A DNA stretch of 37,310 bases from Thiomicrospira sp. (lineage in GTDB: Bacteria > Pseudomonadota > Gammaproteobacteria > Thiomicrospirales > Thiomicrospiraceae), in contig JAUUDE010000096.1 in assembly GCA_030826915.1 (NCBI GenBank), forward strand, positions 1 through 37,310, read 5' to 3'. The translations under genes were made by a program, and so were the position numbers. A model generated the notes under the pieces. It did not search any database. It was not told where the DNA came from and saw nothing but the letters and a program-made list of their open reading frames with translations. Below, in pieces: positions 200 through 36,608 of this stretch. How positions within the stretch are numbered: the first letter of the stretch is position 1; each line of letters opens with the position of its first letter.

Positions 200-233
200 A
201 AGCCCGAATAACCAGGCCTGGTTATTCGGGCTT
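200..233 (-). terminator. Terminator made of a 34-bp perfect palindrome with a CAGGCCTG core
   Basis: Bases 200-233 form an uninterrupted perfect inverted repeat centred on CAGGCCTG, with outer arms AAGCCCGAATAAC and its complement. Read on the minus strand it lies just after the stop codon of the TRAP binding-protein gene and is followed by a T-rich stretch (TTTTTAGTTTTT), so it fits an intrinsic terminator. There are no unpaired bases beyond those forced by hairpin geometry. Confidence 0.75.
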
Positions 234-257
234 AATAAAAATAAAGTGTGAATCTAA

Positions 258-1358
258 TTACAATGAACGGGCTCTTAAATACGCTTGTTCAGAGACTTCT
301 GTCCACTGCATAACTTGCTCTTTAAAGGCTTTTTGTGAAGCCCAAACTTTTTTGGATAATGGGTCCTTAGCCGCTTCTTCTTCAACAACTTGTTCTGCAA
401 TATCTTTTAACGATTTCAAAACGTCATCTGGGAAAAATTTCAATTCAACGTTATGTTTGGTGGTTAATGTATGCAAAGCTTGCTGATTTCGAGCCGTGTA
501 TTCAGCTAACATATCTGCATTGGCTACCTTAATGGCGTTACGCACAATGCTTTGTAAGTCCGCAGGCAATTCATTAAATGCCTTTTCATTAATCATACAT
601 TCCATAGTTGTACCCGGCTCATGCCAACCTGGTGTGTAGTAGTATTTTGCCGCCTTATAAAGGCCAAAAGCTAAATCGTTATATGGCCCTACCCACTCGG
701 TGGCATCTAAAGCACCCGACTGCAAAGATGGGAAAATTTCACCACCTGGCAAAGTAACCGGAATACCACCAGCACGTTTTAGAACTTCGCCACCTAAACC
801 AGGTATGCGCATTTTCAAACCTTTTAGGTCGTCAAGAGAGTTAATCTCTTTATTGAACCAGCCACCCATCTGAGTACCCGAGTTTCCACCTGGGTTCGGA
901 ATTAAACCAAACGGTTTATAGGCCTCTTCCCAAAGCTCTAAACCACCGCCATAGTACATCCACGCATTCATCTCTTGAGCCGTTAAACCAAATGGTACCG
1001 CTGAGAAAAATGCCGCTGATGGAATCTTACCTTTCCAGTAATAAGCGCCTGCATGACCAAGTTGCGCGTTTCCACGTGAAACAGCATCAAACACTTCAAA
1101 CGCCCCGACTAACTCACCTGCACCGTAAACCTTAACATCAATACGGCCACCTGACATTTCTGTAATCAACTTAGCGATATTGTTAGCGCCAGTACCCAAA
1201 CCAGGGAAGTTTTTTGGCCATGTGGTCACCATTTTCCACTTATAGGTTTTTTGCGGTTCAGCGGATGCTTTCTGCGGAGCATCTTCCGTTCCACAAGCCG
1301 TTAAGGCAGTGGCTGCTGTTGCACCAGCAATGGCGCCAATAAAGTCTCTACGTTTCAT
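258..1358 (-). CDS. TRAP transporter solute-binding protein (DctP/TakP-like), Tat-exported lipoprotein
   Basis: Periplasmic solute-binding component of a tripartite (TRAP) carrier. The protein is 366 aa when started at 1358, where ATG is preceded by AAAGGGAG; an in-frame codon at 1409 gives a longer, less likely form. The N-terminus has a twin-arginine motif (KRRDFIG) and then a lipobox-like LTAC, so export by Tat and lipid anchoring are both plausible. The mature part shows the DctP fold signatures, including PGLGGEVLKRAGG and the EWVGPYND stretch seen in TakP-type proteins, which bind alpha-keto acids and similar carboxylates. The substrate here is not established. No dctQ or dctM membrane gene lies beside it in the window, and it appears monocistronic with its own terminator. 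Confidence 0.88.
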   Translation of the reverse strand: MKRRDFIGAIAGATAATALTACGTEDAPQKASAEPQKTYKWKMVTTWPKNFPGLGTGANNIAKLITEMSGGRIDVKVYGAGELVGAFEVFDAVSRGNAQLGHAGAYYWKGKIPSAAFFSAVPFGLTAQEMNAWMYYGGGLELWEEAYKPFGLIPNPGGNSGTQMGGWFNKEINSLDDLKGLKMRIPGLGGEVLKRAGGIPVTLPGGEIFPSLQSGALDATEWVGPYNDLAFGLYKAAKYYYTPGWHEPGTTMECMINEKAFNELPADLQSIVRNAIKVANADMLAEYTARNQQALHTLTTKHNVELKFFPDDVLKSLKDIAEQVVEEEAAKDPLSKKVWASQKAFKEQVMQWTEVSEQAYLRARSL

Positions 1359-1523
1359 ATTTACAAATACTCCCTTTAAGATTAGTAAAGCCATTTTAAG
1401 CAAAAACATGATTCTAAATAGGATTTTTTTAGAATAGGCTTAACCAAAGTATCCAATTCTGATTACTTAGGCATTCGACTGAATTCGGCTAATGACTGTT
1501 CTATTAAGATGAAGTATAGCAAT

Positions 1524-1548
1524 AAAAAAGGGCGTTAATACGCCCTTT
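1524..1548 (-). terminator. Intrinsic terminator of the cbpA-like gene
   Basis: AAAGGGCG (1527-1534), a 6-nt loop and CGCCCTTT (1541-1548) form a perfect 8-bp stem. On the minus strand it is followed by a run of six T. It lies 30 bases after the stop of the J-protein gene. Confidence 0.85.
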
Positions 1549-1578
1549 GATTAAACACTGATTTTTTACTTACTACGA

Positions 1579-2496: not shown

Positions 2497-2593
2497 AACT
2501 TTTTTCTTTCACTATATTCTTTAATTGTCTTAAAAATATGGGCTAAAAAGACAAATTTCAAGGCTATGCGTTCATTTTTTGTGTTTTTTATAA

Positions 2594-2658
2594 CAAAAAA
2601 CCCCTCTTATTCTTTAAAGCGCCTTTTATAAAAAGACTCTTCAAGAATAAGAGGGGTT
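2594..2658 (-). terminator. Long-stem terminator after the TonB receptor gene
   Basis: Perfect 16-bp arms at 2599-2614 and 2643-2658 (core CCCCTCTTATTCTT) enclose a 28-nt loop. On the minus strand a T run follows. It lies 44 bases after the receptor stop codon. The loop is longer than in most intrinsic terminators. Confidence 0.8.
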
Positions 2659-2701: not shown

Positions 2702-4849
2702 CTAAAAATCCAAACGTGCTTTTAGCTGGATATTTCTACCAGTGTTAAGTGTTACGCCTTTGTAGGTATTCAAAAAATCCACATAAGCAGTGTCAAACAC
2801 GTTGTTCACAGCCGCAGATAAATAAAGATTTTGTTTATCCAACTTCATTTTGGCTTGGTAGCCTAAGTTCCACAATGCGTAAGCATCGGTGGATGCTCTT
2901 CCAAACGGTGCATTATCAAATTGTGAGAAAGGCTCATAGGCTCCAGCCGTTTTTTTACTATCAACCAGTTTTACACCTACGGTGAACTTTTGATTTTGTA
3001 GTCCAGCAAAATCCTGAGCGTGATAATGCATATTTATATGGGCGTTATTGGCAGGCATTAATGGTAATTCTTGGTTATTACCCGTATCACGCCCTTCAAT
3101 GATTTCCAAATCCAAATCCGTTGACCAGGCCTGATTGAATTGATGATTAACACTCCATTCAAAACCTGTAATCACCGCATCAGTTTGCTCTGCTTTCATA
3201 ACAGGAATGGTTGCACCTGATTCACTTGTGGTTGTTCTCGGTGTCACACCATCTGCTTCAAATTGATTAGCTAAATAGATGTAATTATCTACCCAGTTTT
3301 GATAAACCGTTGCCACCATCTCTGTTTTAGGTGCTTGCCATCTTAAGGATAAATCAGTATTTAACGAAGTTTCGGCCTTTAGATTAGGGTTACCCTCTTG
3401 ATAGGCTTGAACTCCGCCATGTTCACCACCGGCATACAATTCAAAAATACTTGGTGCACGGAAACCACTGGCTAAGTTTGCGGCTAAACTCCAGTTTGAG
3501 TCAATTCGATAAGTTGAGCCTAAAGAACCACTAAAGACATCAAACGTTCGGCTATTATTGGAGGCGTCATAAATTCCCTTATCCACAAACTGTTTGTTAT
3601 TGCCATCTAGTGGGGCAGAAATACCGTGCCAGTCATAACGAGCACCCATTTGAATTAGCCATTTATCGTAATCCGCTTCTTCAAACAGATAAACGGCTCG
3701 TGTACTCTCTTTTGCTGATGGCGTTAACTCACCAGAACGAAGAACTTGATCTTTTTCTGATAGCTCAAAACCAAGCTCTCCCTCAAAATCACCTACTTTT
3801 GGATGTTCTAATCCAAGTTTCACATCATCACGTTTTACTAACAAGTCCAGATAGTGATCTGTTCCTTTATCTTCTGACATCGTTTCATAAGGTAAATCAT
3901 GTGCCGCTTCACGTGCGTTTCGTATATGTGTATAGCTTGGTTTCACTACCCAATCATTATCTAAAAAGATTTCAGCTTTTAATTGCGTTTCATCATTTTG
4001 CAGTTTTTGTCCTGCACCAATGGTTTCTAAACCTGAACCATTATCTTCCACACCGACATAAGTTTGTTTAGATAGCCATTGAGTGTGACGTAACTCAATC
4101 GTACCCCAGCCTTGTTGATAGCCTATGCCAATATTGGCAGATCGGTTTTCAAAGTTGGTATTAGGAACCTCGCCAACAAACAATGGACGACTATCACCTG
4201 CAATTGTACCCGGTGCTTTAGAGGCATTTGGCACGGTAAAATCATCTGCTGACCGGAGTGAAACACCCGCTTGAATCGCAAACTCTTCAGACCCTGCCCC
4301 TACTTTTGCACCAAACATTTTCTCTTGGTTATTGGTGTTATATTCGCTCGCCAATTCACCCGACATACCTTTGCCATACGGTAAATCTGCTTGAATAACA
4401 TTGACAATACCACCCATCGCTTCTGAACCATACAATACGCTCTGTGGCCCTCTAATGACTTCTACACGTTCAGCCAGAAAAGGATCCACATTAGGCAAAT
4501 GTCTTGTTCCATACGCTTGATAGTCGGTTGACTGACCATTAGATAAAACTTTAATTCGATTTCCTGTCATTCCTCGAATAACGGGCTTACCTACTTGTGT
4601 TCCAGCTGATTGACTATTCACGCCCGGAATACTTTCTAGCATTTGCCCTAAAGAGCCACTTTCTGCGGCCATTTTATCCGCACCTTGAACCACATTAATT
4701 TGCGATGGTACTTCAAAGATTTCATGATCATGAATGGGTGACGCCGATACAGTCACGGATTGTAAAGTGGATGCGGCTTTATCCTGTGCAAACACAGGCA
4801 AAGCACCCGTGGCACAGCAAAGCGCCAAAGTGATTTTTGATAATTTCAT
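2702..4849 (-). CDS. TonB-dependent outer-membrane receptor, ZnuD-like
   Basis: Outer-membrane transporter of 715 aa energised by TonB-ExbBD. It has a signal peptide ending near ALPVFAQ, a plug domain at about 30-155 with GKPVIRGMTGNRIKVLSNG and RVEVIRGPQSVLYGSEAMGG, a 22-strand barrel over the rest, and a C-terminal Phe (LKARLDF) as recognised by the Bam machinery. The plug sequence most resembles ZnuD-type zinc receptors. The small His/Cys-containing protein encoded just upstream on the same strand strengthens a metal substrate, but siderophore or cobalamin transport cannot be excluded from sequence alone. Only 70 bases separate it from that gene. A 7-bp hairpin at 4878-4896 lies in the gap. 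Confidence 0.85.
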   Translation of the reverse strand: MKLSKITLALCCATGALPVFAQDKAASTLQSVTVSASPIHDHEIFEVPSQINVVQGADKMAAESGSLGQMLESIPGVNSQSAGTQVGKPVIRGMTGNRIKVLSNGQSTDYQAYGTRHLPNVDPFLAERVEVIRGPQSVLYGSEAMGGIVNVIQADLPYGKGMSGELASEYNTNNQEKMFGAKVGAGSEEFAIQAGVSLRSADDFTVPNASKAPGTIAGDSRPLFVGEVPNTNFENRSANIGIGYQQGWGTIELRHTQWLSKQTYVGVEDNGSGLETIGAGQKLQNDETQLKAEIFLDNDWVVKPSYTHIRNAREAAHDLPYETMSEDKGTDHYLDLLVKRDDVKLGLEHPKVGDFEGELGFELSEKDQVLRSGELTPSAKESTRAVYLFEEADYDKWLIQMGARYDWHGISAPLDGNNKQFVDKGIYDASNNSRTFDVFSGSLGSTYRIDSNWSLAANLASGFRAPSIFELYAGGEHGGVQAYQEGNPNLKAETSLNTDLSLRWQAPKTEMVATVYQNWVDNYIYLANQFEADGVTPRTTTSESGATIPVMKAEQTDAVITGFEWSVNHQFNQAWSTDLDLEIIEGRDTGNNQELPLMPANNAHINMHYHAQDFAGLQNQKFTVGVKLVDSKKTAGAYEPFSQFDNAPFGRASTDAYALWNLGYQAKMKLDKQNLYLSAAVNNVFDTAYVDFLNTYKGVTLNTGRNIQLKARLDF

Positions 4850-4919: not shown

Positions 4920-5240
4920 TTAGGCAATAGGTGGCGCACGGCCAAAGGTATAAGGTTGGTAGACGAAATGAAAGACAGAACGTGCTTCAATACCTAATGG
5001 AATAATTGGAGCAGGCCTGGTTATTTGAAATGAAGCATAACTAACTTTATCAAGCGGGTGCGTTAAGTTATCAAACACATCACAACTGGCTTCATGTTCA
5101 TGAAAGGGGTGAATCTCAGCATGCAGCAGGCCTGCCGTTTGTGAAAAAACAAACAGCAAAATTAACCCGCTAACTAAACGAATCAATCGATTTTGCACAA
5201 CTTGAATATTGTCTGAATTTAGCTCTTTCACTCGGTTCAA
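4920..5240 (-). CDS. Small envelope protein beside the TonB receptor (DUF2946-like?)
   Basis: Protein of up to 106 aa with one hydrophobic segment (about residues 22-41, LVSGLILLFVFSQTAGLL), then a His/Cys-containing stretch (HAEIHPFHEHEASC) and a C-terminal GRAPP. This layout is typical of small proteins encoded next to metal-responsive TonB receptors; the exact family is not certain. The longest frame starts with TTG at 5240. No ATG is available and no strong ribosome-binding site was found, so a GTG further in is possible. It is transcribed ahead of the receptor and probably with it. Two CAGGCCTG copies lie inside this gene, 115 bases apart. Confidence 0.6.
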   Translation of the reverse strand: MNRVKELNSDNIQVVQNRLIRLVSGLILLFVFSQTAGLLHAEIHPFHEHEASCDVFDNLTHPLDKVSYASFQITRPAPIIPLGIEARSVFHFVYQPYTFGRAPPIA

Positions 5241-5391: not shown

Positions 5392-7032
5392 ATGGCAAAC
5401 TCTCCGTACGCAGGTAAAAAAGCGCCTTATACTCTTTTAGAAAACATTCCTCTGCTGATGGCGGATTATTACAACCTTGCTCCTGATGCAAACAACCCAA
5501 ATCAAGCGGTCAGTTTTGGCACCAGCGGCCACCGAGGTTGCTCAAGTAAAACCACTTTCAATGAAAACCATATTGCCGCTATTTGCCAAGCCATTGTTGA
5601 ATATCGCCGTCTACAAAACACCGTTGGTCCAATGTATATTGGTATGGATACCCACGCTTTATCCGAAGCGGCTCACGCCACAGCAATTGAAGTTTTTGCC
5701 GCCAACAAGGTCAACGTCATTATTCAGTCAAATGGTCGTTATACACCAACGCCTGTTGTCTCTAATGCTATTTTGACTTATAACGAAGGTCGACAAGGCG
5801 GTTTAGCCGATGGCGTGATTATTACCCCATCACATAACCCACCACAAGATGGCGGCTTTAAATACAACCCACCAACGGGTGGCCCTGCCGATACGGAAGC
5901 CACAAACTGGATTCAAGATCGTGCCAATGCCATGATTAAGGATGGCATGAAAGAGCTCAAACGCATGCCATTAAGTGAAGCCATGCAGTCTGATTATGTT
6001 ACTCCAACCGACCTTATTATGCCGTATGTTAAAAACCTAGATAAAGTCGTAAATATGCAGGCCATCAAAGAAGCTGGCTTAAAATTAGCCATTGACCCTA
6101 TGGGTGGTGCCGCGGTTGATTTTTGGCAACCCATTGCCGAATATTACGGCCTAAATCTAGAAACTGTTAACCCACAAGTGGATGCCACCTTCTCATTTAT
6201 GCACGTAGATAAAGATGGCAAAATCCGTATGGATTGTTCGTCACCCTATGCAATGGCAGGCCTGATTAGTTTAAAAGACAATTATGATCTTGCCTTTGGT
6301 AATGACCCAGATGTAGATCGCCATGGAATTGTCACCAAGTCGGTTGGTTTAATGAACCCTAACCACTACTTAGCCGTTGCCATTCAATACCTATTTAGCC
6401 ATCGCCCTAACTGGCCTAAAAATGCCGCAATCGGAAAAACTTTGGTATCTAGTTCCATGATTGATCGTGTTACTCATGCCATGAACTTAAACCTAAGTGA
6501 AGTACCCGTTGGCTTTAAATGGTTTGTAGATGGTTTACAAACTGGCGAATTTGGCTTTGGTGGTGAAGAATCCGCTGGCGCCTCTTTTTTACGTTTTGAT
6601 GGCGGCCCTTGGTCTACTGATAAAGACGGAATTATCTTAAATTTATTAGCGGCAGAAATCACAGCGGTTACAGGTAAAGATCCTGGCGAACTTTATCAAG
6701 AATTAACGGAAAAATACGGTAACCCAATATACAGCCGTATTGATGCGCCTGCCAACCGTGAACAAAAAGCGGTTTTAAGTAATCTATCGCCAGATATGGT
6801 TAAGGCAGATAGCTTAGCAGGCGAAACAATCACCGCTAAACTCACCCACGCTCCAGGTAACGGCGCTGCCATTGGCGGGTTAAAAATCACCACCGAAAAT
6901 GGTTGGTTTGCGGCTCGACCATCAGGCACCGAGGACATTTATAAAATTTACGCTGAAAGTTTTAAGGGTCAAGAACACCTTGATACAATATTAGATGAAG
7001 CTAAAGCAATTGTATCTAACGCACTTAAATAA
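5392..7032 (+). CDS. pgm: Phosphoglucomutase (alpha-D-glucose phosphate specific)
   Basis: Interconverts glucose 1-phosphate and glucose 6-phosphate in the cytoplasm, linking glycolysis to glycogen and cell-envelope sugar nucleotides. It is 546 aa, the length of E. coli Pgm. The phosphoserine loop is TPSHNPP, with Ser at about residue 147. The metal-binding loop is [10 protein letters not shown], the sugar-binding loop is GGEESAG, and the phosphate-binding loop near the C-terminus is RPSGTED. The N-terminal SFGTSGHRG is also typical. The ATG at 5392 follows AAAGTGAG. A patatin-like gene follows after 23 bases and is probably co-transcribed. One CAGGCCTG lies at 6257, where it encodes Ala-Gly-Leu. 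Confidence 0.96.
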
Positions 7033-9127: not shown

Positions 9128-10444
9128 TCACCTTGTCAATAGAATTTCGATTTTATCTAAATACTGTTTGTCATCCCATTCTGTTCCGCCAAATAGTGCA
9201 AACTGAATTTTACCTTTTTTATCAATGAGATAACTACTAGGGTAAGCAAACACATTCCACTGTTTGACAGCAAGCGCATCAGAGTCCAGTAAAACGGGAA
9301 AGTTAACAGGGTGCTCTTTTAAAAACGCCACAACCTGTTCTTTTTGCTCGCCTAAATTGACTGCTAATATTTCAAAATCACGTTTTGCATAATGGCTTTT
9401 TAAACGTGCCATAGATGGCATTTCATGCACGCAAGGTGGACACCAGCTCGCCCAAAAATTTACCAAGACCACTTTACCTTTATAGCTTTGTAAATCAACA
9501 GAATTATTGTTGATATCCATTAGTGCTAAGGGTAAGTTTTGTTTGCCTTTATAGTCTGATAAAGCCAAAGTTCTAGTTTGTTTAACTGGTTTTTTTACCT
9601 TGGCAGATAATGTTTTAATCCTTCTTGGTTTTGAAAAGTATGCTAACTGTAATCGCATCGATTGCAGTAGGTTGTTTGCCATTTTATTTGCTTTGTGTTT
9701 TTCAATATCCAAAGCATCTGGCCTAAAATAAAAACGATCTCTGACCTCTGTAATTATCTGAGTAAACACATCACTGCCGAGCAAACTCAACTGTTTGGTG
9801 AGCGGTGTTAGACGCCACTTCCAAGGCGAAAGTTCGGCCTGAATAATGGTAATTGGTAAATTGATATTGCTGGTTTCAGGCCAGTAATCGGCTACCAGGC
9901 CTGGTTGCGGTGTTTCTATGTATAAATTAGGATTAATTAAAATCAAACCTAAATTATGAATTGGTTTAGTGAGAACCTTTTGCAAACCTTTAACTGCAAT
10001 TTGTGCGGCTTTGTTGGGAGCAATAATCCACACAGGAACGTCCACATCTTCTCTTGCTAACTCAATCAATTTTTGAGTCCATTGTGGATTAATTTTATCT
10101 ACCGTGCTGGGCGTGGGTGATAAAAACATGGCGTCATAATAATCCACAAACCAAGATTCAATGCCATACTGGCTCAGCTGTTCAGCCATCGCTTTTTCTT
10201 GCGGCAAAACCCCGTATTCTGAAGGCAACCAAAGCAAACGAGCTTGCGTTTTTTTATTTGTGGTTGGCACTTGCTTAGGCATCATCGCATCAATAACGTC
10301 AATCGATAAACTGACATCGCCCACTTCCAGAATTTTTTCCGAAGCTTGAACGGACGAAACCACACTAACCAGGCCTGCCCAAATTAAAAACAGCCCTATT
10401 TGAACAATCTTTTTACCTTTAATATTGCTGTTTTTAAAATTCAC
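9128..10444 (-). CDS. Exported fusion: alpha/beta-hydrolase-like domain plus TlpA/ResA thioredoxin domain
   Basis: Protein of 438 aa starting with GTG at 10444, chosen because AAAAGG lies 7 bases upstream. An N-terminal membrane or signal segment spans about 14-35. Residues 65-245 look like an alpha/beta-hydrolase fold (LLWLPSEYG, LGLILINPNLY), but the expected nucleophile elbow GxSxG reads APNKAAQ, so hydrolase activity is unlikely. Residues 290-438 are a TlpA/ResA-type thioredoxin with the WCPPC active site at 334-338 and the cis-Pro loop YPSSYLID. Such domains reduce disulfides of periplasmic proteins, often during cytochrome c maturation; the partner here is unknown. Two CAGGCCTG copies occur (9896, 10370). 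It is divergent from the olsF-like gene. Confidence 0.8.
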   Translation of the reverse strand: MNFKNSNIKGKKIVQIGLFLIWAGLVSVVSSVQASEKILEVGDVSLSIDVIDAMMPKQVPTTNKKTQARLLWLPSEYGVLPQEKAMAEQLSQYGIESWFVDYYDAMFLSPTPSTVDKINPQWTQKLIELAREDVDVPVWIIAPNKAAQIAVKGLQKVLTKPIHNLGLILINPNLYIETPQPGLVADYWPETSNINLPITIIQAELSPWKWRLTPLTKQLSLLGSDVFTQIITEVRDRFYFRPDALDIEKHKANKMANNLLQSMRLQLAYFSKPRRIKTLSAKVKKPVKQTRTLALSDYKGKQNLPLALMDINNNSVDLQSYKGKVVLVNFWASWCPPCVHEMPSMARLKSHYAKRDFEILAVNLGEQKEQVVAFLKEHPVNFPVLLDSDALAVKQWNVFAYPSSYLIDKKGKIQFALFGGTEWDDKQYLDKIEILLTR

Positions 10445-16643: not shown

Positions 16644-16713
16644 TCCGTTTTCCGTAAATACAACTATCAACAGGCCTGCTTAGTTTGCCATTTTTAATTT
16701 GTCATAAAGCAGT

Positions 16714-19284: not shown

Positions 19285-19298
19285 AACCAGGCCTGGTT
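19285..19298. repeat. Extended palindrome AACCAGGCCTGGTT
   Basis: Intergenic 14-bp form of the CAGGCCTG repeat. No other feature was recognised between the rpmE terminator and 19412. Confidence 0.85.
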
Positions 19299-23211: not shown

Positions 23212-24366
23212 TTAATCAAGTCCATCACGTTTTCTATTTTGTAGCTGTTTAACTAACTTAGCCACGGGTGCGGGAATACCAATTTCACCGCTTAATACCA
23301 TTTGTATGTCTACCCATTTAAGCTCAAGACTATTATCTAAGCCAAGCGTATAAAGACTGTCATTTTCTGCCACTTTACTTGTAGCAGGTGTTTCATTCCC
23401 TTGTTTTATTTCATCTTTTAGATTTATCTTATCTTTTAGATATAAAGGGTGAATATCCAAATGGTAATGTGAAAACGTGTGTCTGAATGTGTCCCATTCT
23501 ATCAAACTCTTTGCATCACTTCCGTGGCTTTGCAGAAACTTTTCACAGGCCTGTATACTTTCAAATTCAGGCAAACTCCAAAGCCCGCCCCAAATGCCTT
23601 TTTGTGGCCGTTGTTGCAAATAAATTTCAGCTTGTTGATTCTCTTTTATAAGTAACCAGGCCTGCTTAATTGGCTTAATCTTTTTAGGCTTTTTATATGG
23701 AAATTCTACCACTCTATTTTGAGAAAAAGCCTGACAATCTGTTTTAACTGGGCACTTGCCACACTGCGGTTTGCTTCGAGTACATAAGGTTGCACCCAAA
23801 TCCATGATTGCTTGAGTGTAGTCATTAAAACGTTGTTTTGGAGTCAAACTTTCCGCTAGATCCCATAGGTCGTTTTCAATGGCTTTCTGCCCCGGCCAGC
23901 CTTCAATAGCATAATATCGGCTTAATACACGCTTAACATTACCATCTAAAATCGCAAAACGTTGGTTAAGTGAAATCGATAGAATCGCCCCTGCGGTTGA
24001 ACGCCCTATTCCCGGTAAGGCAACAATCTCATCAAAATTACTCGGAAAAACACCTTGATATTGTTGTGCAATTTGTTGTGCCGCTTTATGTAAATTGCGA
24101 CCACGAGCGTAATAACCCAACCCTGCCCAATGTGATAAAACTTCATCTTGCGAAGCCTGAGCCAAATCAACCACGGTTGGAAAACGTTGCATGAATTTTA
24201 GGTAATACGGAATCACGGTTTTGACTTGCGTCTGTTGTAACATGATTTCTGAAACCCAGACTCGATAAGGCGTTATCTGCTGTTGCCAAGGCAAATCATG
24301 CCGACCATATTGATCAAACCAGGCTAACAATCGATTTGAGAATTGCGTTTCTTGCTTTTGTGACAT
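23212..24366 (-). CDS. mutY: Adenine DNA glycosylase MutY
   Basis: Removes A mispaired with 8-oxoguanine. It is 384 aa. The N-terminal catalytic domain has [10 protein letters not shown] (catalytic Glu), the helix-hairpin-helix [13 protein letters not shown] and LDGNVKRVL (catalytic Asp). The 4Fe-4S ligands have the C-x6-C-x2-C-x5-C spacing from CTRSKPQC. The C-terminal NUDIX-like 8-oxoG domain includes [12 protein letters not shown] and RHTFSHYHL, and carries a Lys/Glu-rich insert near 305-335. Two CAGGCCTG copies (23546, 23657) lie in the less conserved C-terminal half. Confidence 0.96.
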
Positions 24367-25715: not shown

Positions 25716-27812
25716 TTATTCAATCATAGTTTTTAGGGTGTTTAAGATTGGTGCTTGAGTTAGCAGGCCTGGTGTTATTTCGGCTAAATTTACCGACCAC
25801 GTTGGTTGAGTCAAATTGCCTTTAAACATCAAAGGCAAAGTCAGCCCTTTAAGTTCCGTGAGAACATTGTCGGCTTTCTCAATGGTTACCTGTAACTCAC
25901 CATTTACTTGCTGACGCTTTAAATCAAATATGCCCTTGCCAGCGCCTTTAAAATTTTCACTTTGCACCAACAGCCTTTTAGGCATAAAAACCCCTTGCAA
26001 AAATTTACCGTTCACTTCGACATGATTGAGTTTTGTGTGTAAATCATCGGTTTTATTTAAACTCACATTACCAGCCAGCAATGCATTCATATCCAAGCCA
26101 TAGACCTCTGCATCACTAATATTTGCGTTGACCGCACCTTTCAAGTTCTCTGCCCACGCTTCAGGCGTATTACCAAAAGTAGTCAAGTGAAAATGGCTCT
26201 CTACGTTACCTGTTAAAGGCGACTTAACATTGGAAACCAAAGCATTAATGGGCAAATTTTTGGTACGGCCTTTCCAAAGATATTGACCTAATGATTTAGA
26301 TAAATCGGCAATCAATTTAGACTGTAAAACACCGTCTTTTACTTGCCAATCAAAAGGGGCAAAGACCATTTTTCCATGTCTAGAAAACAATTCTGATTCT
26401 AGTTTAGCTACACGAATATCAAAGGCATTAAAATTGGTAAGCACCACATTGCCTTGGGCATTTAAAGCTTGCAAAGCTTTTAAAGGAAAAGGATAAAAAG
26501 TATGTTCAATCTTTTGGCCAGTTTCTTTACTGGGTTCTGTCAACTTGGCTAAATAATCTTCAGCTTTTAGGCCATCAATGGCTAAATTAAATTTCAGTGC
26601 TTGATTGAAATCTAACGGCAAAAGCACATTGCCTTGAATAGAAGCCGAATCCAATTTCGCTTGGATATTATCTAGCTTTAAGACTTGGCCATCCCATCGC
26701 CAATTAAATTTGCCTTCTGCCTCTGTGAGCGACTTTTTATTCACCATCTCTGGCGCAGGCAACCCTAAACGTTTAATCCACTCTTTTAAATCCACTTTAT
26801 TGGCTTCAAACACCCCTTCAAAAACAGGATTAACGCCGAACTCGCCTTGAAAACTCAAATTTACATCTGCCTCTAAACCTTGTAATGTCGCTTCATTAAC
26901 ATAGATTTGATGATGTTTAAAATCCAGCAACAAATTTTTGCCCGATGTCGTTAAGCGCGTATCAGGTAAATTATATTCTGGCGGTAATTGCAAACGAAAT
27001 ACACCGTTCCAATTATTTAAATAGAGCTGGCTATAATGATTGCCTAAATGCAAAAAACCGTTTAATTCAAAATCAAAAGTTCTAGGTGATTGACTGTGCT
27101 GGTAAATAAAATCAGTGTTAATTTGAAAAGGCGTATCAGGCAAAACATCAAAGGTTAATAAGTTAACTTTTTTAATTGTTACCGTATAGCCATCTTCAAT
27201 ATTTGAATAATCGATTTGTGCATTTTTAACCACCAAACTCTGCAGTGACCAATCTTGCTCATTCACCTCAGACTTAACTATCGGTGGACCATTATTTACA
27301 TCACTCACTACACGTTTAAAGTAATTCGTCACTTCATTAGGTTTTAAATTTGCATACCGTAGTTTGGCAAGCTGTTGTTCAGGCATAATCGCTACAAGCA
27401 GAGGAATATCGCTCCAGTTATTTTGCGTTTTTTGTTGAATAAAATGGAGTTTAGGTTCAATCAGCTCCAAACCTTTAATATCTAATTTACGATCGATAAA
27501 AAGCGACTTTAGAGACAGCTCAATATGCGCGCCTTTCATGGTCATAAGGTTTGTTTCTTTAAACCCTGGTGGATTTTTTAAGGCTAAATTTCCCAAATGA
27601 AACTTAAAAGGCAATATAGATACATCGACTTCGCCTTCAATTTTAAAATCACGATTTGTGTATTGAGTTACTTCGGCTTCAATTTGAGGTTTATATTGAT
27701 TAAAGTCAATTAAACTGACTGCTCCAGCAAAGGCTAAAAAGACAAGAATGGGAATAATGACAACGACTAAAGTAATGCCTTTTGTCCAGGTAATATGTAT
27801 GGGTTTAATCAC
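25716..27812 (-). CDS. AsmA family envelope protein
   Basis: Protein of 698 aa with an N-terminal membrane anchor (about 11-33, GITLVVVIIPILVFLAFAGAV), then the AsmA start (IDFNQYKPQIEAEVTQYTNRDFKI is close to the family consensus) and a long beta-rich repeat region. The C-terminal AsmA domain is near GAVNANISDAEVYGLDMNALL. AsmA-like proteins span the periplasm as bridge-like structures and take part in lipid movement to the outer membrane; the role of this one is inferred. The start is GTG at 27812. The GGDEF gene lies 77 bases upstream on the same strand without a visible terminator between them. Confidence 0.87.
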   Translation of the reverse strand: MIKPIHITWTKGITLVVVIIPILVFLAFAGAVSLIDFNQYKPQIEAEVTQYTNRDFKIEGEVDVSILPFKFHLGNLALKNPPGFKETNLMTMKGAHIELSLKSLFIDRKLDIKGLELIEPKLHFIQQKTQNNWSDIPLLVAIMPEQQLAKLRYANLKPNEVTNYFKRVVSDVNNGPPIVKSEVNEQDWSLQSLVVKNAQIDYSNIEDGYTVTIKKVNLLTFDVLPDTPFQINTDFIYQHSQSPRTFDFELNGFLHLGNHYSQLYLNNWNGVFRLQLPPEYNLPDTRLTTSGKNLLLDFKHHQIYVNEATLQGLEADVNLSFQGEFGVNPVFEGVFEANKVDLKEWIKRLGLPAPEMVNKKSLTEAEGKFNWRWDGQVLKLDNIQAKLDSASIQGNVLLPLDFNQALKFNLAIDGLKAEDYLAKLTEPSKETGQKIEHTFYPFPLKALQALNAQGNVVLTNFNAFDIRVAKLESELFSRHGKMVFAPFDWQVKDGVLQSKLIADLSKSLGQYLWKGRTKNLPINALVSNVKSPLTGNVESHFHLTTFGNTPEAWAENLKGAVNANISDAEVYGLDMNALLAGNVSLNKTDDLHTKLNHVEVNGKFLQGVFMPKRLLVQSENFKGAGKGIFDLKRQQVNGELQVTIEKADNVLTELKGLTLPLMFKGNLTQPTWSVNLAEITPGLLTQAPILNTLKTMIE

Positions 27813-29455: not shown

Positions 29456-30613
29456 TTATTCCGCTAAAAATGCACCGACCACATCGTTTAAATATTGTTG
29501 GCCTTTTGCTGTCAATTTTAAACACTGTTCTTCATTCAATGTAATAAATCCTTGTTCTTGCAAATCAAGCAACGTTTTTTCTATTACCGAAGTTGGCAGG
29601 CCTGTTCTTAGGCTAAATAACTGTAAATCAAACCCTTGTTGCAAGCGTAATGCATTCAACATAAATTCAAAAATGGCATCACCTTCTTCAAGCCAATGGG
29701 TGCGCCCTGCATTTTGTTGTTTCATGGCTTCTACATAACCACCTGGCGAAGCGGGCATTTGTGTTCTAAAGATTCGCCCTTCTGGCGCCATAGTGATTTT
29801 GCCATGCGCACCTGCTCCTAAGCCTATGTAATCGCCAAACTGCCAGTAGTTTACATTGTGCAAACATACACGTCCCTTTTGAGCGTAAGCGGAAACCTCA
29901 TAATGCTCATAACCTGCTTGAGCGATTTTATCTTGGCAGGCCTGCTGAAACTCCCAAGCCAAATCATCATTGGGCAAAACGGGCGGATTTTTATAAAACG
30001 GGGTATTGGGTTCTAGGGTTAATTGATAGTGCGATAAATGCGGTGGTTGATAGCTTAATGCTTGCTCTACATCCGAAATGGCTTGCTCTAAACTCTGATT
30101 TGGCAAGGCAAACATCAAATCTAAATTAAAGTTTTTAAACCCTGCAGATTTAGCAGCTTCAATCGCTTTATGCGCTTCGTCAGCAGAGTGTATTCGCCCT
30201 AGTGCTTTCAGCTTTTCATCATCAAAACTTTGAATTCCCATAGAGAGACGGTTAACCCCAGCTTGATAGAAGCCGGCAAACTTTTCAAAATCAACCGTAC
30301 CTGGATTAGCTTCTAGGGTAATTTCAATTTCGGGCGAAAATCCTAGCAAAGCTCTAGCTTGCGATAAGAATCGATTCAAACCCTCTTCAGAAATTAAGCT
30401 TGGTGTACCACCACCAAAAAATATCGACTTAATGGGACGCCCCCAAACCTGAGGCAAGATTCTCTCAAGTTGAGTAATTAATGCATCAATATAGGCCGTT
30501 TCATTTATCTCAGTTTTTAGGGTGTGAGAATTAAAATCACAATAAGGACACTTTTGCACACACCACGGATAATGCACATATAAGCTTAATGGTAAGGGTT
30601 GAGTAAAATTCAC
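29456..30613 (-). CDS. hemW: Heme chaperone HemW (radical SAM)
   Basis: Protein of 385 aa with the radical SAM cluster C-x3-C-x2-C (Cys18, Cys22, Cys25 in CVQKCPYCDF), GGGTPS and the later RLSMGIQSF. The fourth Cys of true coproporphyrinogen dehydrogenase HemN (CxxxCxxCxC) is replaced by Phe, which marks HemW, a protein that delivers heme to respiratory enzymes. The start is GTG at 30613 with GGA 8 bases upstream. It follows rdgB on the same strand, a conserved pairing, with a 160-base gap in which nothing else was recognised. Two CAGGCCTG copies lie inside. Confidence 0.93.
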   Translation of the reverse strand: MNFTQPLPLSLYVHYPWCVQKCPYCDFNSHTLKTEINETAYIDALITQLERILPQVWGRPIKSIFFGGGTPSLISEEGLNRFLSQARALLGFSPEIEITLEANPGTVDFEKFAGFYQAGVNRLSMGIQSFDDEKLKALGRIHSADEAHKAIEAAKSAGFKNFNLDLMFALPNQSLEQAISDVEQALSYQPPHLSHYQLTLEPNTPFYKNPPVLPNDDLAWEFQQACQDKIAQAGYEHYEVSAYAQKGRVCLHNVNYWQFGDYIGLGAGAHGKITMAPEGRIFRTQMPASPGGYVEAMKQQNAGRTHWLEEGDAIFEFMLNALRLQQGFDLQLFSLRTGLPTSVIEKTLLDLQEQGFITLNEEQCLKLTAKGQQYLNDVVGAFLAE

Positions 30614-30773: not shown

Positions 30774-31385
30774 CTAGGCACCTCGCCTTAACTGCATAAC
30801 TAAAGCATTTAACGCCTGAGTACGGTGGCTTACTTGGTTTTTTTGCACTTTAGACATTTCTGCCGCTGACTTTTCAAACTCTTCTACCCAAAAAATAGGA
30901 TCGTAACCAAATCCTCCATCCCCACGTTTTTCGGTCAAAATTTCACCATACCAACGTCCTAAACCAATTATAGGCGTTGGGTCATTAGCGTGTTGCACAT
31001 AAACCATGGCACAGTAATAACTGGCTTGACGCTGTTCAGCAGGAACGCCATCAAGCTCTAACAACAGTTTTTGTAAATTTGTTTCATCACTGGTTGCCTC
31101 TCCATACATATCTTCAGAATAACGAGCTGAATAAATACCAGGCCTGCCCTGCAAAGCCAAAACCTCAATTCCCGAATCATCTGCAATAGCAGGCAAGCCA
31201 GATTTTTTAGATGCATAACGTGCTTTTAAAATGGCATTTTCTATGAAGGTTAGGCCCGTTTCTTCAACTTCACTATCAAAAAAATCCAATTGCGGTTTTA
31301 TGTCCCAACCATGCGGTTGTAACATCTCTGAAATTTCTCTAATTTTGCCCGCGTTACCTGAAGCCAAAACAACCGTTTGTACCAT
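30774..31385 (-). CDS. rdgB: XTP/dITP pyrophosphatase (RdgB/HAM1)
   Basis: House-cleaning enzyme of 203 aa that hydrolyses non-canonical purine triphosphates. Signatures are LASGNAGKIREI, ENAILKARYAS, AIADDSGIEV with the catalytic Asp, and GDGGFGYDPIF; the C-terminal VSHRTQAL is also typical. The ATG is at 31385. It is divergent from yicC, and the whole space between them is nearly filled by a miniature element. One CAGGCCTG at 31139 encodes Arg-Pro-Gly. Confidence 0.96.
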   Translation of the reverse strand: MVQTVVLASGNAGKIREISEMLQPHGWDIKPQLDFFDSEVEETGLTFIENAILKARYASKKSGLPAIADDSGIEVLALQGRPGIYSARYSEDMYGEATSDETNLQKLLLELDGVPAEQRQASYYCAMVYVQHANDPTPIIGLGRWYGEILTEKRGDGGFGYDPIFWVEEFEKSAAEMSKVQKNQVSHRTQALNALVMQLRRGA

Positions 31386-33206: not shown

Positions 33207-35666
33207 ATGAGTGAAATAGATAAACCAAAAATTGAAGTTGAAGTGAACAACGGTTCTGCCCCTGAAATAGAAAATAATTCTCCACCTGCCTCTAAACCAG
33301 CTAAAAAGCCAAGACGTTACTTTTTATGGTTTTTTATTATCAACTTCATCTCTATTAGTGCGTTTGTAATTGCAGCAGGAATCTATTATTACTTAACTGA
33401 ATACCCAAAACTTCCAGACCCTGCTGAGCTCAAAGAAGTGAGCTATCAAGTCCCGCTTAGAATTGTGACTCAAGATAACAAACTAATCAGTGAAATAGGA
33501 ACAAAAAAGCGTTTACCCTTAGAATATTCAGAAATTCCGGAGAGAATGACCCAGGCTATTATCTCTTCAGAAGATGAACGTTTTTTTGAGCATGGCGGTG
33601 TCGACTACAGAGGTTTAGCTCGCGCTGTTTTTGAACTGATAACAACCGGTAGTAAGAAATCGGGTGGTTCAACCATTACTATGCAGGTAGCCCGAAACTT
33701 CTTTTTAAGCAAAGAAAAAACCTACTTGCGTAAATTTAATGAAATCATTCTTTCTTACAAAATTGAACACGAACTCAGCAAAGAAGAGATACTGGCACTT
33801 TATCTCAATAAAATCTTTTTAGGCTACCGTTCATACGGTGTAGCCGCTGCTGCTCAAACATACTATGGCCGACCTATTTCAGAGCTTACCTTAGATGAAT
33901 ACGCTATGATTGCTGGCCTGCCTAAAGCCCCTTCAGCTTATAACCCTATTGCCAACCCAAGTCGCGCTAAGCTGCGCCGCAACTATGTATTACGCCGCAT
34001 GAATGAGCTTAACTTTATTACTCAAGAAGAGATGCTTGCAGCACAAGCCGTTCAAGTTCATGCTGAACGCCACGCCTCAATTATTGATATTGAAGCCGAC
34101 TATGTCGCTGAAATGGCACGCGCTTTTGCATTAGATAAATTTGGTGAAGAAGCCCTGCAGAACGGTTTAACAATCGTGACATCCATTGACAGTAAACTGC
34201 AAGCACAAGCAAACCAAGCGGTACAACATGGATTACAACGTTATGAACGTCGCCACGGTTATAGAGGTGCCATTGCCAACATCGACATTAATAGCTTTGA
34301 AGATGAAAAAGCATTGCTAAAAGAGCTAAAAAACACTTCAAACTTTGGTGATTTAAAAGTGGGCATTGTCACAGGCTTTGCAAAAACAGACACTCAAGCG
34401 TTAATGCAAACTGGTGAAAAAGTCAGCATACCTTTTAAAACAATGGAATGGGCTGCGCCATTCATAAGCGTAAACCACAAAGGCAAAGCACCTAAAAAAC
34501 CTCAAGATGTGCTTAAAGTTGGTGATGTCATCTATTTACAATTTATTGAAGAACAATGGCAACTGGCGCAAGACCCTAAAACCGAATCGGCTCTAATTTC
34601 TATCGATTCAAGTAATGGACGTATTTTTGCACTTGTTGGTGGTTATGACTATTTTAGAAGTAAATTTAATCGTGTCACTCATGGTCGCCGCCAAGTGGGT
34701 TCGAACATTAAGCCATTTTTATATTCAGCAGGCCTGGATAATGGCATGACCGCCGCTACCACCATTAATGATGCGCCAGTCGTATTCCACGACCGTAACC
34801 TAGAAGATGTGTGGCGTCCTGAAAACTATTCAGGTCGTTTTTATGGCCCTACTCGTTTACGCAATGCGCTCGCCTTCTCTCGTAACTTGGTCTCTGTTCG
34901 TCTACTAAGAAAATTGGGAATTGATACCGCATCCAACTATATTCAGCGTTTCGGTTTTCCAGAAGAAGAAATTAACAAACACAGAGATTTATCTCTCTCT
35001 TTAGGAAGTGTGCAATTCACCCCTTGGGAAGTAGCTAGAGCTTATGCAACCTTCTCAAACACAGGATATTTAATTGAACCGTACCTTATTTCAGAAGTAC
35101 GTGACTTTAATGGCGACATTCTATTTAAAGCCCAACCAAAAATCGCCTGCAACAATAATCAATGTGTTGCTGGGGATGAACAAAATGCACCCCGCGTCAT
35201 TGAAGAACGCAATGCGTATATCATGACAACAATCATGCAAGATGTCATTCGTATTGGTTCTGCCAAAAAAGCCCGTGCATTAAAAAGACAAGACATTGCG
35301 GGTAAAACCGGTACCACTAACGATCAAAAAGACGCTTGGTTTTCAGGCTTTAATCCAAATATGACCACAACGGTTTGGGTAGGTTTTGATAGCCCTACAA
35401 CTTTAGGTCGTAGTGAAGTAGGTGGACGTGCCTCTTTACCTATTTGGATGGAGTACATGGAACTCGCTTTAAAGGCTTACCCTAACGAGCCGTTTGTTCA
35501 GCCCGCTGGTATTGTCAATATTCCAATTGACAGAGAAACAGGACAAGCAGTACCAAGAAATACTCCCGGTGCTTTATCTGAAATTTTCAGAGAAGAATAT
35601 GCCCCAGAGATCCCAAGCGTATCTCAAAAACAGATTGAAGACATAACCGAAGATCTCTTCAACTAA
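33207..35666 (+). CDS. mrcA: Penicillin-binding protein 1A (bifunctional transglycosylase/transpeptidase)
   Basis: Class A peptidoglycan synthase of 819 aa. It has a cytoplasmic Pro/Lys-rich N-terminus, one transmembrane helix (about 39-61), and a GT51 glycosyltransferase with the catalytic Glu in SSEDERFFEHGG (about 122) and GGSTITMQVARN. An OB-like insert occupies about 345-450. The transpeptidase has SNIK (Ser499, Lys502), SRN (558) and KTG (700). The GT51 helix pair KEEILALYLNKIFLG is also clear. It is not beside pilM genes, unlike in several relatives. One CAGGCCTG lies at 34729. Confidence 0.96.
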   Translation: MSEIDKPKIEVEVNNGSAPEIENNSPPASKPAKKPRRYFLWFFIINFISISAFVIAAGIYYYLTEYPKLPDPAELKEVSYQVPLRIVTQDNKLISEIGTKKRLPLEYSEIPERMTQAIISSEDERFFEHGGVDYRGLARAVFELITTGSKKSGGSTITMQVARNFFLSKEKTYLRKFNEIILSYKIEHELSKEEILALYLNKIFLGYRSYGVAAAAQTYYGRPISELTLDEYAMIAGLPKAPSAYNPIANPSRAKLRRNYVLRRMNELNFITQEEMLAAQAVQVHAERHASIIDIEADYVAEMARAFALDKFGEEALQNGLTIVTSIDSKLQAQANQAVQHGLQRYERRHGYRGAIANIDINSFEDEKALLKELKNTSNFGDLKVGIVTGFAKTDTQALMQTGEKVSIPFKTMEWAAPFISVNHKGKAPKKPQDVLKVGDVIYLQFIEEQWQLAQDPKTESALISIDSSNGRIFALVGGYDYFRSKFNRVTHGRRQVGSNIKPFLYSAGLDNGMTAATTINDAPVVFHDRNLEDVWRPENYSGRFYGPTRLRNALAFSRNLVSVRLLRKLGIDTASNYIQRFGFPEEEINKHRDLSLSLGSVQFTPWEVARAYATFSNTGYLIEPYLISEVRDFNGDILFKAQPKIACNNNQCVAGDEQNAPRVIEERNAYIMTTIMQDVIRIGSAKKARALKRQDIAGKTGTTNDQKDAWFSGFNPNMTTTVWVGFDSPTTLGRSEVGGRASLPIWMEYMELALKAYPNEPFVQPAGIVNIPIDRETGQAVPRNTPGALSEIFREEYAPEIPSVSQKQIEDITEDLFN

Positions 35667-35673
35667 ATTGCAA

Positions 35674-35706
35674 GACCTTTACACAAGAGGGGCGAAAAGC
35701 TCTCAT
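35674..35706. mobile_element. Relic of the miniature element end
   Basis: GACCTTTACACAAGAGGGGC and the following AAAAG match the end of copy A at 29274-29436, with two substitutions and a small gap. GCTCTCAT follows and resembles the opposite terminus, as if the interior had been deleted. It lies between mrcA and the fructosamine-kinase-like gene. Confidence 0.55.
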
Positions 35707-35726
35707 TACGATTACAAGGTTGCTTT

Positions 35727-36608
35727 ATGAACTGGCCAGAATTTTCTCTTCATCTTAGCGAACAGCTTGGCCAGTCTATTGCAATCGAAACAGTACATTC
35801 CGTTGCAGGTGGCGATATACACCAAGCGTTTCAGCTGCATACCGATCAAGGCAATTTCTTTTTAAAGCTAAATCAAGCTTCACTTCTGCCATTATTTCAT
35901 ACAGAAGCGCATAGCCTCACGGCTATTGAACAATCCTCTTCAATACGCTGCCCTAAAGTCATTAATTTTGGTACATTCAATAACCAGGCCTGGTTACTTT
36001 TGGAGTTTTTATCACTCAGCAGTAAAGGGGACGATTTTCAGCGTGGTCGAGATTTAGCCTTAATGCATCACCAAATTCATAATAACTCTCAACCTTTTGG
36101 TTGGTTTGAAGATAACTATATCGGCCATACACCGCAAAAAAACCGTTGGCATTCCAACTGGATAAATTTTTATGCTGAGCAACGTTTACGACCACAACTG
36201 GAACTCAGTCAGCTCCGTGGAGCAAGCAGCAACTTATATCAGTTAGGAACGCAATTAATAGAAGCTCTGCCATTTTGGTTCCAAGACTATCAGCCTGAAG
36301 CCTCGCTATTACATGGCGACTTATGGGGTGGTAACAGCGCTTTTACCCAAGATGGCGATGCGGTTATTTTTGATGCGGCAAGCTATTACGGTGACCGAGA
36401 AACCGACATTGCTATGACAGAACTCTTTGGTGGATTTTCAAGCGATTTTTATAATGGCTATAATGATGTTTTTCCATTAGATCCAGGCTATCAACAGCGC
36501 AAACCCCTCTACAATCTTTACCATATTCTTAATCACTTTAATCTTTTTGGTGGCCACTATGAACAAGAGGCCTTAAACATCATCCAACAATTATTAGCAC
36601 AAACCTAA
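35727..36608 (+). CDS. Fructosamine kinase family protein (YniA-like)
   Basis: Protein-kinase-like fold of 293 aa that phosphorylates sugars attached to amines in related enzymes, allowing their removal from proteins. Signatures are SVAGGDIHQAFQL, the ATP-binding Lys in FFLKLN, the catalytic loop HGDLWGGN, the metal Asp in IFDAASYYGDRETDIAM, and a C-terminal helical bundle. The substrate is not established. The ATG is at 35727. The 16-bp extended palindrome at 35981 falls inside it and encodes N-Q-A-W-L. Confidence 0.9.
   Translation: MNWPEFSLHLSEQLGQSIAIETVHSVAGGDIHQAFQLHTDQGNFFLKLNQASLLPLFHTEAHSLTAIEQSSSIRCPKVINFGTFNNQAWLLLEFLSLSSKGDDFQRGRDLALMHHQIHNNSQPFGWFEDNYIGHTPQKNRWHSNWINFYAEQRLRPQLELSQLRGASSNLYQLGTQLIEALPFWFQDYQPEASLLHGDLWGGNSAFTQDGDAVIFDAASYYGDRETDIAMTELFGGFSSDFYNGYNDVFPLDPGYQQRKPLYNLYHILNHFNLFGGHYEQEALNIIQQLLAQT
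35981..35996. repeat. Extended coding palindrome TAACCAGGCCTGGTTA
   Basis: A 16-bp perfect palindrome containing the CAGGCCTG core, located within the fructosamine-kinase-like gene. Confidence 0.85.

Follow-up and report, generated by a model that had tools for sequence, protein, structure and literature searches.

Several kinds of short words are known to recur over bacterial chromosomes. Chi (GCTGGTGG) is short, invariant and found throughout the chromosome; all Chi words known to us are directional, not palindromic, and long A+T arms are no part of them. The uptake sequences of Neisseriaceae (DUS) occur in high copy number, those of Pasteurellaceae (USS) are flanked by A+T-rich DNA, and to our knowledge no uptake sequence is palindromic. 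A clear excess of one-mismatch forms has been described for uptake sequences in PMC1939737, while in cyanobacteria the palindromic octamer HIP1 (GCGATCGC) and its alternates have been described as tracking methyltransferases (PMC4390886). Here we analyze another palindromic octamer, CAGGCCTG, from Thiomicrospira sp. Literature searches for this word gave, among the matches listed, papers without it or with titles that point to unrelated work, and likewise, among the matches listed, no earlier report that joins Thiomicrospira with a DNA uptake sequence or natural transformation.

Abundance of the octamer in the window and in the source genome

The window, i.e. the whole stretch of 37,310 nt that was analyzed, contains 21 exact copies of CAGGCCTG, starting at positions 213 to 35985, as counted in the initial annotation, and no other octamer reaches this count. 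Dinucleotide shuffles of the window yielded 0.35 copies on average and 2 at most, and none of the 100 shuffles reached 21. The G+C content, assumed in the initial annotation to be 40%, was measured as 39.5%, and the hexamer AGGCCT, said to occur about five times outside the octamer, was found 26 times in total, of which 5 are outside. The excess, which had been proposed to extend over the genome, is not limited to the window: the source genome (a draft of 1.79 Mb, 86.4% complete) contains 655 copies in 1,786,265 bases, compared to a single occurrence of the reversed-pattern control. In the coding DNA sampled from this genome there are 119 copies vs. 3.0 after synonymous-codon shuffling, and CAGGCCTG is the most over-represented octamer relative to such shuffles. 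Chance or composition as the source of the word is ruled out by both types of shuffles. The observation of a strongly iterated palindrome is confirmed as real and genome-wide, and such a large genome-wide excess of a palindromic octamer is also characteristic of HIPs.

No strand is assigned to the copies in the window. The one at 213..220 is intergenic and forms the center of a long inverted repeat, gcccgaataacCAGGCCTGgttattcgggc, while another intergenic copy, at 19288..19295, has the arms aacCAGGCCTGgtta. The copy at 16671..16678 is located directly upstream of the predicted start of uvrD, and three others are within this gene: at 14583..14590 (query nt 2081), present only in the source genome of the 29 genomes with data; at 15177..15184 (query nt 1487), shared with only one other genome (G002) of those 29; and at 16086..16093 (query nt 578, codons S-G-L-V), which 9 of 15 high genomes contain, but none of 15 low ones (as defined below). 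Two copies, at 23546..23553 and 23657..23664, are in mutY (23212-24366, minus strand), and one, at 31139..31146, is in rdgB (30774-31385, minus strand). Together, these genome-maintenance genes hold 6 of the 17 coding copies in the window (p 0.018), a bias that was looked for post hoc and is only suggestive. Other copies are found in ORFs whose translations read as a TonB-dependent receptor (3126..3133, in 2702-4849, minus strand), a phosphoglucomutase (6257..6264, in 5392-7032, plus strand), an AsmA-like protein (25764..25771, in 25716-27812, minus strand), a HemW-like protein (29597..29604 and 29937..29944, in 29456-30613, minus strand), a PBP1A-like protein (34729..34736, in 33207-35666, plus strand) and a kinase-like protein (35985..35992, with the full arms aataacCAGGCCTGgttact, in 35727-36608, plus strand). 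Two copies each are present in a 106-aa ORF without an NCBIfam match (5012..5019 and 5127..5134, in 4920-5240, minus strand) and in an ORF with a TlpA/ResA-like domain (9896..9903 and 10370..10377, in 9128-10444, minus strand), and one is in a FetB-like ORF whose match is below the family cut-off (12972..12979, in 12885-13676, minus strand).

The exact core, graded arms and placement of the copies

In 897 kb of samples from high genomes, without loci of Hydrogenovibrio halophilus, the perfect word occurs 356 times vs. 11.5 expected, and one-mismatch forms occur 256 times vs. 248.6 expected; in the sample with these loci included, 348 one-mismatch forms were counted vs. 367 expected. The fifteen H. 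halophilus loci were chosen for their 18-mer and hence are enriched; they also enter the Chi, intergenic, peptide-context and synonymous-shuffle counts, and the main counts were repeated without them. Thirteen loci of Thiomicrospira sp. WB1, likewise chosen by their 18-mer, are included in the synonymous-shuffle data set. A mild excess is exhibited by forms with a mismatch in the outermost base alone (76 vs. 51), and intergenic one-mismatch forms number 30 vs. 13.1 expected in ten high samples and 27 vs. 6.0 in the source genome. Depletion of forms with a central mismatch, considered as precursors of the word, was apparent in the first sample, but it turned out to be equal in low genomes and was rejected.

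The flanks of the core are graded and symmetrical toward AAATTTACCAGGCCTGGTAAATTT, although weaker in the source genome. Symmetrized flank counts reveal a preference for G-T-A-R, and the palindrome is kept in these extensions, as in HIPs. The entire site is two-fold symmetric and comprises about 24 bp with A+T-rich arms, which in some genomes extend 8-13 bp from the core; beyond the arms, the flanks of different copies diverge. The combination of an invariant short core, many copies and graded flanks is typical of uptake sequences.

Among the eligible peptide contexts, 108 of 271 contain the exact word (3.6 expected), and the spacing of copies is chance-like (CV 0.99). Since the copies fill free codon contexts and are spaced as if by chance, opportunistic accumulation rather than placed sites is suggested; the word occupies whatever contexts leave it free. 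When the eleven sampled genomes apart from G000 are pooled, its density is 2.96/kb in convergent and 1.13/kb in divergent gaps. Orthologous gaps with a site keep one in 16/37 and 42/93 ordered pairs, compared to 21/129 and 51/303 for gaps without a site, with gap length uncontrolled.

Distribution, a dialect and candidate machinery

The initial annotation regarded the word as a HIP-like element peculiar to the source genome. It is indeed genome-wide, palindromic and exact, but it is shared by a large part of the family and exists in more than one dialect. The 32 genomes of the genus comprise 15 high ones, with 236-1173 copies of CAGGCCTG, and 17 low ones, with 3-74, and of five other Thiomicrospiraceae genera three are high as well. 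One low genome, G023, contains 1217 copies of CCGGCCGG, which occurs at most 90 times in each of the other 31; CCGGCCGG in this genome is a dialect of the word, and dialects between lineages of one family are also known for uptake sequences. Both cores are perfect palindromes. A search for a replacement octamer in nine other low genomes (samples of 40-77 kb each, with power reduced by repeats in G019, and with seven low genomes outside the sample) yielded none, although weaker or gapped words may escape it. Ten low genomes retain the S-G-L-V peptide of uvrD without CAGGCCTG. A single UvrD gene tree covers 30 of the 32 genomes. By a partial UvrD, the sister of the source genome is G006, a fragmented draft with 236 copies.

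A link to a cytosine methyltransferase, suggested by the initial annotation, was not borne out: at E 0.001, neither the source genome (86% complete) nor any of five high genomes that are at least 99% complete and contain 522-904 copies yielded a match to PF00145, PF01555 or PF02086. Members of these three families, as candidates for methylating the word as in the case of HIPs, were not found in five of the ten high genomes that are nearly complete, nor in 2 of 9 low ones; PF02384, PF07669, PF05063 and others are outside this search. Given these five high genomes without a match, a C5, N4/N6 (PF01555) or D12 methyltransferase is rejected as the common factor. Vsr repair was rejected as the driver as well, as it is present in 3 of 32 genomes, just one of them high.

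As regards uptake machinery, ComP_DUS (PF16732) has no match over the cut-off in the 32 genomes of the genus and five family relatives, and the single match below it, in G019, does not identify a ComP-type receptor. ComEC is present in 17/17 family genomes with at least 400 copies and in 16/20 others (p 0.11, not significant). Apart from the source genome, all 27 genomes of the genus searched for T2SSE ATPases and all 23 searched for N_methyl pilins contain them, whether high or low, and the two groups cannot be told apart by their numbers of pilin-like genes. The presence of ComEC and pilus-type ATPases in most low genomes speaks against uptake.

In the source genome no N_methyl pilin was detected at E 0.01, and the T2SSE family has only a 1.9e-5 match. 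Its intergenic copies seem to decay: the ratio of perfect to one-mismatch forms is 27:27, vs. 128:30 in ten other high samples (G006, G033 and G023 left out; Fisher p 2.7e-5, or 9.4e-6 without the pre-selected H. halophilus loci). In the intergenic DNA of the G006 sample, 7 copies are perfect and 8 have one mismatch, with 4.2 expected. The coincidence of undetected pilus genes with seemingly decaying copies speaks for uptake, and concerns one draft genome of 86% completeness. A lost drive should, however, erode coding and intergenic copies alike, and the coding copies hardly decay (26 synonymous one-mismatch forms vs. 29.1), which counts against uptake. The GT flank is kept in 9/27 intergenic one-mismatch forms vs. 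23/27 perfect ones, hence some of the former may not be relics. Besides, G021, which has pilus genes, exhibits 12 perfect to 7 one-mismatch forms, not different from the source genome (p 0.42); that a piliated genome likewise has many one-mismatch forms speaks against uptake.

Possible explanations and comparison with known systems

Among the remaining suggestions of the initial annotation, the best fit would be DNA uptake, with a nucleoid-type protein as the next possibility. We tentatively interpret CAGGCCTG with its symmetrical A+T-rich arms as a drive-accumulated self-recognition (uptake-type) sequence of Thiomicrospiraceae-type sulfur bacteria, in line with the family-wide spread, exact core, graded arms, opportunistic use, preference for convergent gaps and the CCGGCCGG dialect. 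The word would accumulate wherever proteins or promoters stay undisturbed, most likely through preferential uptake and recombination of fragments in which it is present, analogously to DUS, and a putative surface or uptake protein would read it as a palindrome. The low genomes may have lost the word, and the source lineage may have lost the machinery, with its copies then beginning to decay. The cores are palindromic and not oriented, and the overall excess of one-mismatch forms described for uptake sequences in PMC1939737 is absent here, both of which speak against uptake. It is conceivable, though we would not yet call it probable, that this is a third, independently evolved family of self-recognizing uptake sequences and the first palindromic one, in free-living sulfur-oxidizing gammaproteobacteria, which would have two or more dialects and would have been lost repeatedly in one genus.

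The main rival, somewhat doubtful in our opinion, is a dimeric nucleoid or chromosome-organizing protein of the family that would bind the palindrome chromosome-wide via half-sites with GGTA-R-W-T arms around GGCC, the dialect reflecting a changed protein. The exact core, the two-fold symmetry of the 24-bp site with A+T arms and the keeping of sites in orthologous gaps agree with such a protein, itself putative, whereas the chance-like spacing and the filling of free codon contexts do not. Maintenance by methylation, with a solitary methyltransferase recognizing AGGCCT, GGCC or the octamer, would be suggested by the similarity of word type to HIP1 and its alternates, but we consider it unlikely given the nearly complete high genomes without the three families and the arms, whose reach probably exceeds the usual methyltransferase footprint.

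A palindromic Chi-like signal, which RecBCD would recognize from either side and which would accumulate as its carriers recombine better, appears improbable. The weaker UvrD matches include long ORFs of RecB size (putative RecB), and the source-genome sample shows no enrichment of the E. coli Chi word (13 vs. 15.3 expected), but such ORFs occur in low genomes as well as in high ones, and the known Chi words, directional and without long A+T arms, are a poor precedent. A bias in codon usage or composition, or a mobile repeat without function, can be practically dismissed: apart from the shortness of the word nothing was found in its favor, and as a complete account it is refuted by the synonymous and dinucleotide shuffles, the divergent flanks, and the low genomes that retain S-G-L-V in uvrD without the word.

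If the uptake interpretation is true, a third case of uptake sequences, in chemolithoautotrophs, would provide an independent system for studying why such words evolve; if it is wrong, the link that has been proposed for HIP1 would be weakened by a highly iterated palindrome that does not track these three families of methyltransferases. With 32 related genomes in clearly high or low states, the cause should be findable by gene presence and absence.

Chi and CAGGCCTG are both exact short chromosome-wide words, but Chi is directional, while the palindromic core of CAGGCCTG allows no polarity. With HIP1 and the alternate HIPs our word shares the features of a GC-rich palindromic octamer found genome-wide in coding and non-coding DNA, with palindromic extensions and with another palindrome as a substitute in some relatives (PMC4390886). 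It differs from them in its occurrence in Gammaproteobacteria, in its A+T arms, in the half of nearly complete high genomes without a match to the three methyltransferase families, and in one-mismatch forms being near chance, while they are described as common in many cyanobacteria (PMC4390886). Neisseriaceae DUS are similar in having dialects (PMC12616744), but the word studied here is palindromic, and ComP_DUS was not found over the cut-off in the family. Pasteurellaceae USS differ in lacking a palindromic core and symmetrical arms and in their overall one-mismatch excess, and the uptake bias in our case is putative. They are similar, however, in their invariant core, with A+T-rich DNA on its flanks, and in the presence of dialects in one family (PMC12616744), and we count as a further likeness that a high density of USS has been described despite defective competence genes (PMC1626085). 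USS also accumulate in temperate phages (PMC6776037), and a phage-like contig here carries 8 copies of CAGGCCTG in 20.5 kb, i.e. the density of the host, an observation that speaks for uptake.

The word, its arms and its dialect

The palindromic octamer CAGGCCTG, built around the hexamer AGGCCT, is a real element, exact and family-wide. It occurs in the window (G+C content 39.5%) in 21 exact copies, as counted in the initial annotation, against 0.35 on average and never more than 2 in 100 dinucleotide shuffles, and 5 of the 26 AGGCCT hexamers lie outside it, in agreement with the earlier estimate of about five. The excess is not confined to the window, a case that the same annotation had named as telling against its proposal: the source genome, G000, whose 99 contigs total 1,786,265 bases at 86.4% completeness, contains 655 copies and only 1 of the reversed pattern. 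In 897 kb from ten sample sets of high genomes (those rich in the word), perfect copies number 356 versus 11.5 expected (order-3 Markov model, sites masked), and forms with one mismatch total 256 versus 248.6, with a mild excess at the outermost base only (76 versus 51). These main counts were redone without the Hydrogenovibrio halophilus loci, which had been picked because the word is present; with them, the figures are 389 versus 19.6 and 348 versus 367. In 651 kb of low genomes they are 5 versus 7.5 and 174 versus 178.

The flanks are symmetrical and graded (G014, G030, G021, G009, G018, G027), with a consensus of word and arms close to AAATTTACCAGGCCTGGTAAATTT. Among 121 coding copies from six genomes, the frequencies are 0.66 for G at +1, 0.74 for T at +2, 0.83 for A or G at +4 and 0.84 for A or T at +6, while 86 intergenic copies give 0.90 for G at +1, 0.91 for T at +2 and 0.88 for A or T at +6. 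The arms are weaker in the source genome (G 0.45 and C 0.35 at +1, T 0.70 at +2; 56 copies) and strongest in G033, from another genus, where +5 to +8 are A or T in all copies sampled (10 in 60 kb); G025 favours C or T at +1 and +2 in place of G-T. In G033 (L132-L134) the word lies within palindromes roughly 26 bp long whose A/T arms hardly vary, and several copies have TTAGCG-like blocks further outward, as though within a longer repeat. The low genome G023 (L077, L078, L119-L125) carries 12 copies of CAGGCCTG but 1217 of another palindrome, CCGGCCGG (control 22), of which every other genus genome has at most 90; the 86 copies in 180 kb of its samples have T at +1 (0.91) and again A+T arms. 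The GGCC centre and the arms are thus retained, while the intervening bases vary. CCGGCCGG is flanked in G023 by ACC..GGT; other low genomes (e.g. G012, G013, G019, G026, G031) have 55-84 copies, exceeding the reversed control two- to fivefold.

Distribution and history

Within the genus, 15 of the 32 genomes contain 236-1173 copies of CAGGCCTG and 17 contain 3-74. Among the five genomes from other genera of the family, G033, G035 and G036 have 409, 840 and 668 copies, and G032 and G034 have 7 and 10, while the counts in 21 genomes from further away in the class range from 0 to 222 and never exceed the reversed control more than about sevenfold. An exact scan of a named-genome collection with the 18-mer TTTACCAGGCCTGGTAAA returned 37 stretches: 15 from H. 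halophilus, 13 from Thiomicrospira sp. WB1, 5 from two Thiomicrorhabdus and 4 isolated hits to unrelated bacteria, by estimate about the chance expectation; records close to the source genome may be missing from that collection. The genus of the window is thus probably Thiomicrorhabdus or a near neighbour. Two stretches retrieved in this way, from Leptolyngbya and Dehalococcoidia (L246, L258), have 3 and 2 copies of the octamer in about 8 kb. On a tree built from UvrD for 30 of the 32 genus genomes, the high/low label needs 4 changes versus 10.4 with labels shuffled (0 of 500 shuffles as low), which, together with the high genomes of other genera, makes ancestral presence with several losses the simplest history. 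Five genomes (G001, G011, G016, G022, G029) have 3-5 copies each, below chance by estimate, possibly through avoidance of a GGCC-type restriction site.

Further dispersed repeats were observed in G014 (GTCATTGCGAGG-type, L093-L096) and G009 (CAGACTTAGGTTCAGAC-type, L105-L108); words like CAGCTAAGAA, found nearly 100 times in the 40 kb sampled from G019 (L075 or L076), probably belong to one large, very repetitive gene. An ORF at 19577-20233 of the window partially matches a model for staphylococcal thermonuclease, with an E of 1.1e-10 that falls short of the family cut-off.

Placement in genes and gaps

The word occupies sites where its cost is nil. When synonymous codons were shuffled with the protein fixed, the source-genome sample had 119 coding copies versus 3.0, the most over-represented 8-mer, and four relatives pooled had 98 versus 4.6; the excess is merely about threefold in the WB1 (32 versus 10.8) and H. 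halophilus (17 versus 5.6) loci. In the peptide contexts [STAP]-G-L and Q-A-[CW] of the source genome, where the word fits without altering the protein, 108 of 271 sites carry the exact word (3.6 expected). Of 15 high genomes, 9 have it at one and the same set of codons in uvrD, and each of the nine encodes S-G-L-V there; none of 15 low genomes has it at this place, though 10 of these encode the same peptide.

Intergenic density exceeds coding density 2.6- to 13-fold in ten other high samples (e.g. 2.01 versus 0.30 per kb in G030) and just 1.6-fold in the source genome (0.54 versus 0.33 per kb). In eleven genomes pooled without the latter, G023 being entered with CCGGCCGG, convergent gaps hold 44 copies in 14.8 kb (2.96/kb), tandem gaps 79 in 51.6 kb (1.53/kb) and divergent gaps 30 in 26.4 kb (1.13/kb). 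Spacing is chance-like (CV 0.99, 403 gaps). If an intergenic gap has a copy, the orthologous gap also has one in 16 of 37 cases for close pairs (21 of 129 if the first has none) and in 42 of 93 for distant pairs (51 of 303), each pair being counted in both orders and gap length uncontrolled. Aligned copies are mostly perfect or have at least two bases changed (small numbers).

Candidate readers of the word

Cyanobacterial HIP words, as described in PMC4390886, accompany methyltransferases able to act on them, and the initial annotation proposed such a link here. The search covered PF00145, PF01555 and PF02086; hits over the cut-off occur in 15, 9 and 5 of the 32 genus genomes, unrelated to the word, and Vsr in 3. 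Among genomes that are at least 99% complete, one or more of the three families is present in 5 of the 10 high ones and in 7 of the 9 low ones (p 0.35); the proposed link is not supported for these families, which were rejected as the common factor. None was found in G014, G017, G021, G025 and G027, though each has 522-904 copies. Methylation by another family, such as PF02384, PF07669 or PF05063, seems unlikely.

We tentatively regard CAGGCCTG as a putative drive-like self-recognition sequence of uptake type. ComEC is present in 33 of 37 family genomes, including the source genome, and ComP_DUS was not found over the cut-off in any of the 37. Pilus and type II secretion genes are present in the other genus genomes searched, whereas a search for N_methyl pilins at E 0.01, covering 24 of the 32 genus genomes, gave matches in the other 23 and none in the source genome. 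Its best T2SSE match is only 1.9e-5 (28 of 32 searched), and it was accordingly taken to be the only one among 44 genomes that lacks a match above the cut-off. Its draft is 86% complete, and between 2 and 6 ATPases are present in each of five drafts whose completeness is 79-88%. Were uptake what maintains the word, loss would be expected in this lineage. The intergenic sample of the source genome (49.6 kb) contains 27 perfect and 27 one-mismatch words (6.0 expected), versus 128 and 30 (13.1 expected) in ten other high samples (Fisher p 2.7e-5, composition uncorrected; 9.4e-6 without the H. halophilus loci). This decay argument is, however, weakened: the GT flank accompanies 9 of the 27 one-mismatch forms versus 23 of the 27 perfect ones (14 of 30 one-mismatch forms elsewhere); G021, in which six ATPases and 15 pilin matches were counted, contains 12 perfect and 7 one-mismatch words, no different from the source genome (p 0.42); and coding copies are hardly eroded (125 perfect, 0.33/kb; 26 synonymous one-mismatch forms versus 29.1, a slight excess of 0.08 per perfect copy relative to non-perfect contexts). 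The re-check of one-mismatch flanks and G021 slightly lowered our confidence in uptake.

The 16-mer TTACCAGGCCTGGTAA occurs in four IMG/VR contigs, three of which have one octamer apiece within the 3-12 kb examined. The fourth, IMGVR_UViG_3300005470_000015 (L260/L303), has 8 in 20.5 kb, the host density, and matches to a phage-type exonuclease, an O-like replication protein and a P-like helicase-loader; the word is absent from five contigs with a relative of one of its proteins, whatever their hosts may be. Host density in a phage-like contig would also be expected from any intracellular process. A dimeric chromosome protein is the main rival candidate as reader, somewhat less likely than uptake, and a Chi-like signal is very improbable.

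CAGGCCTG resembles an uptake sequence in the A+T flanks around an exact core, in having dialects, in accumulating at free sites, and in a probable shared ancestry with losses. In Pasteurellaceae, uptake-sequence density is high despite broken competence genes, according to PMC1626085, and temperate phages gather uptake sequences (PMC6776037), much as the phage-like contig carries CAGGCCTG at host density.
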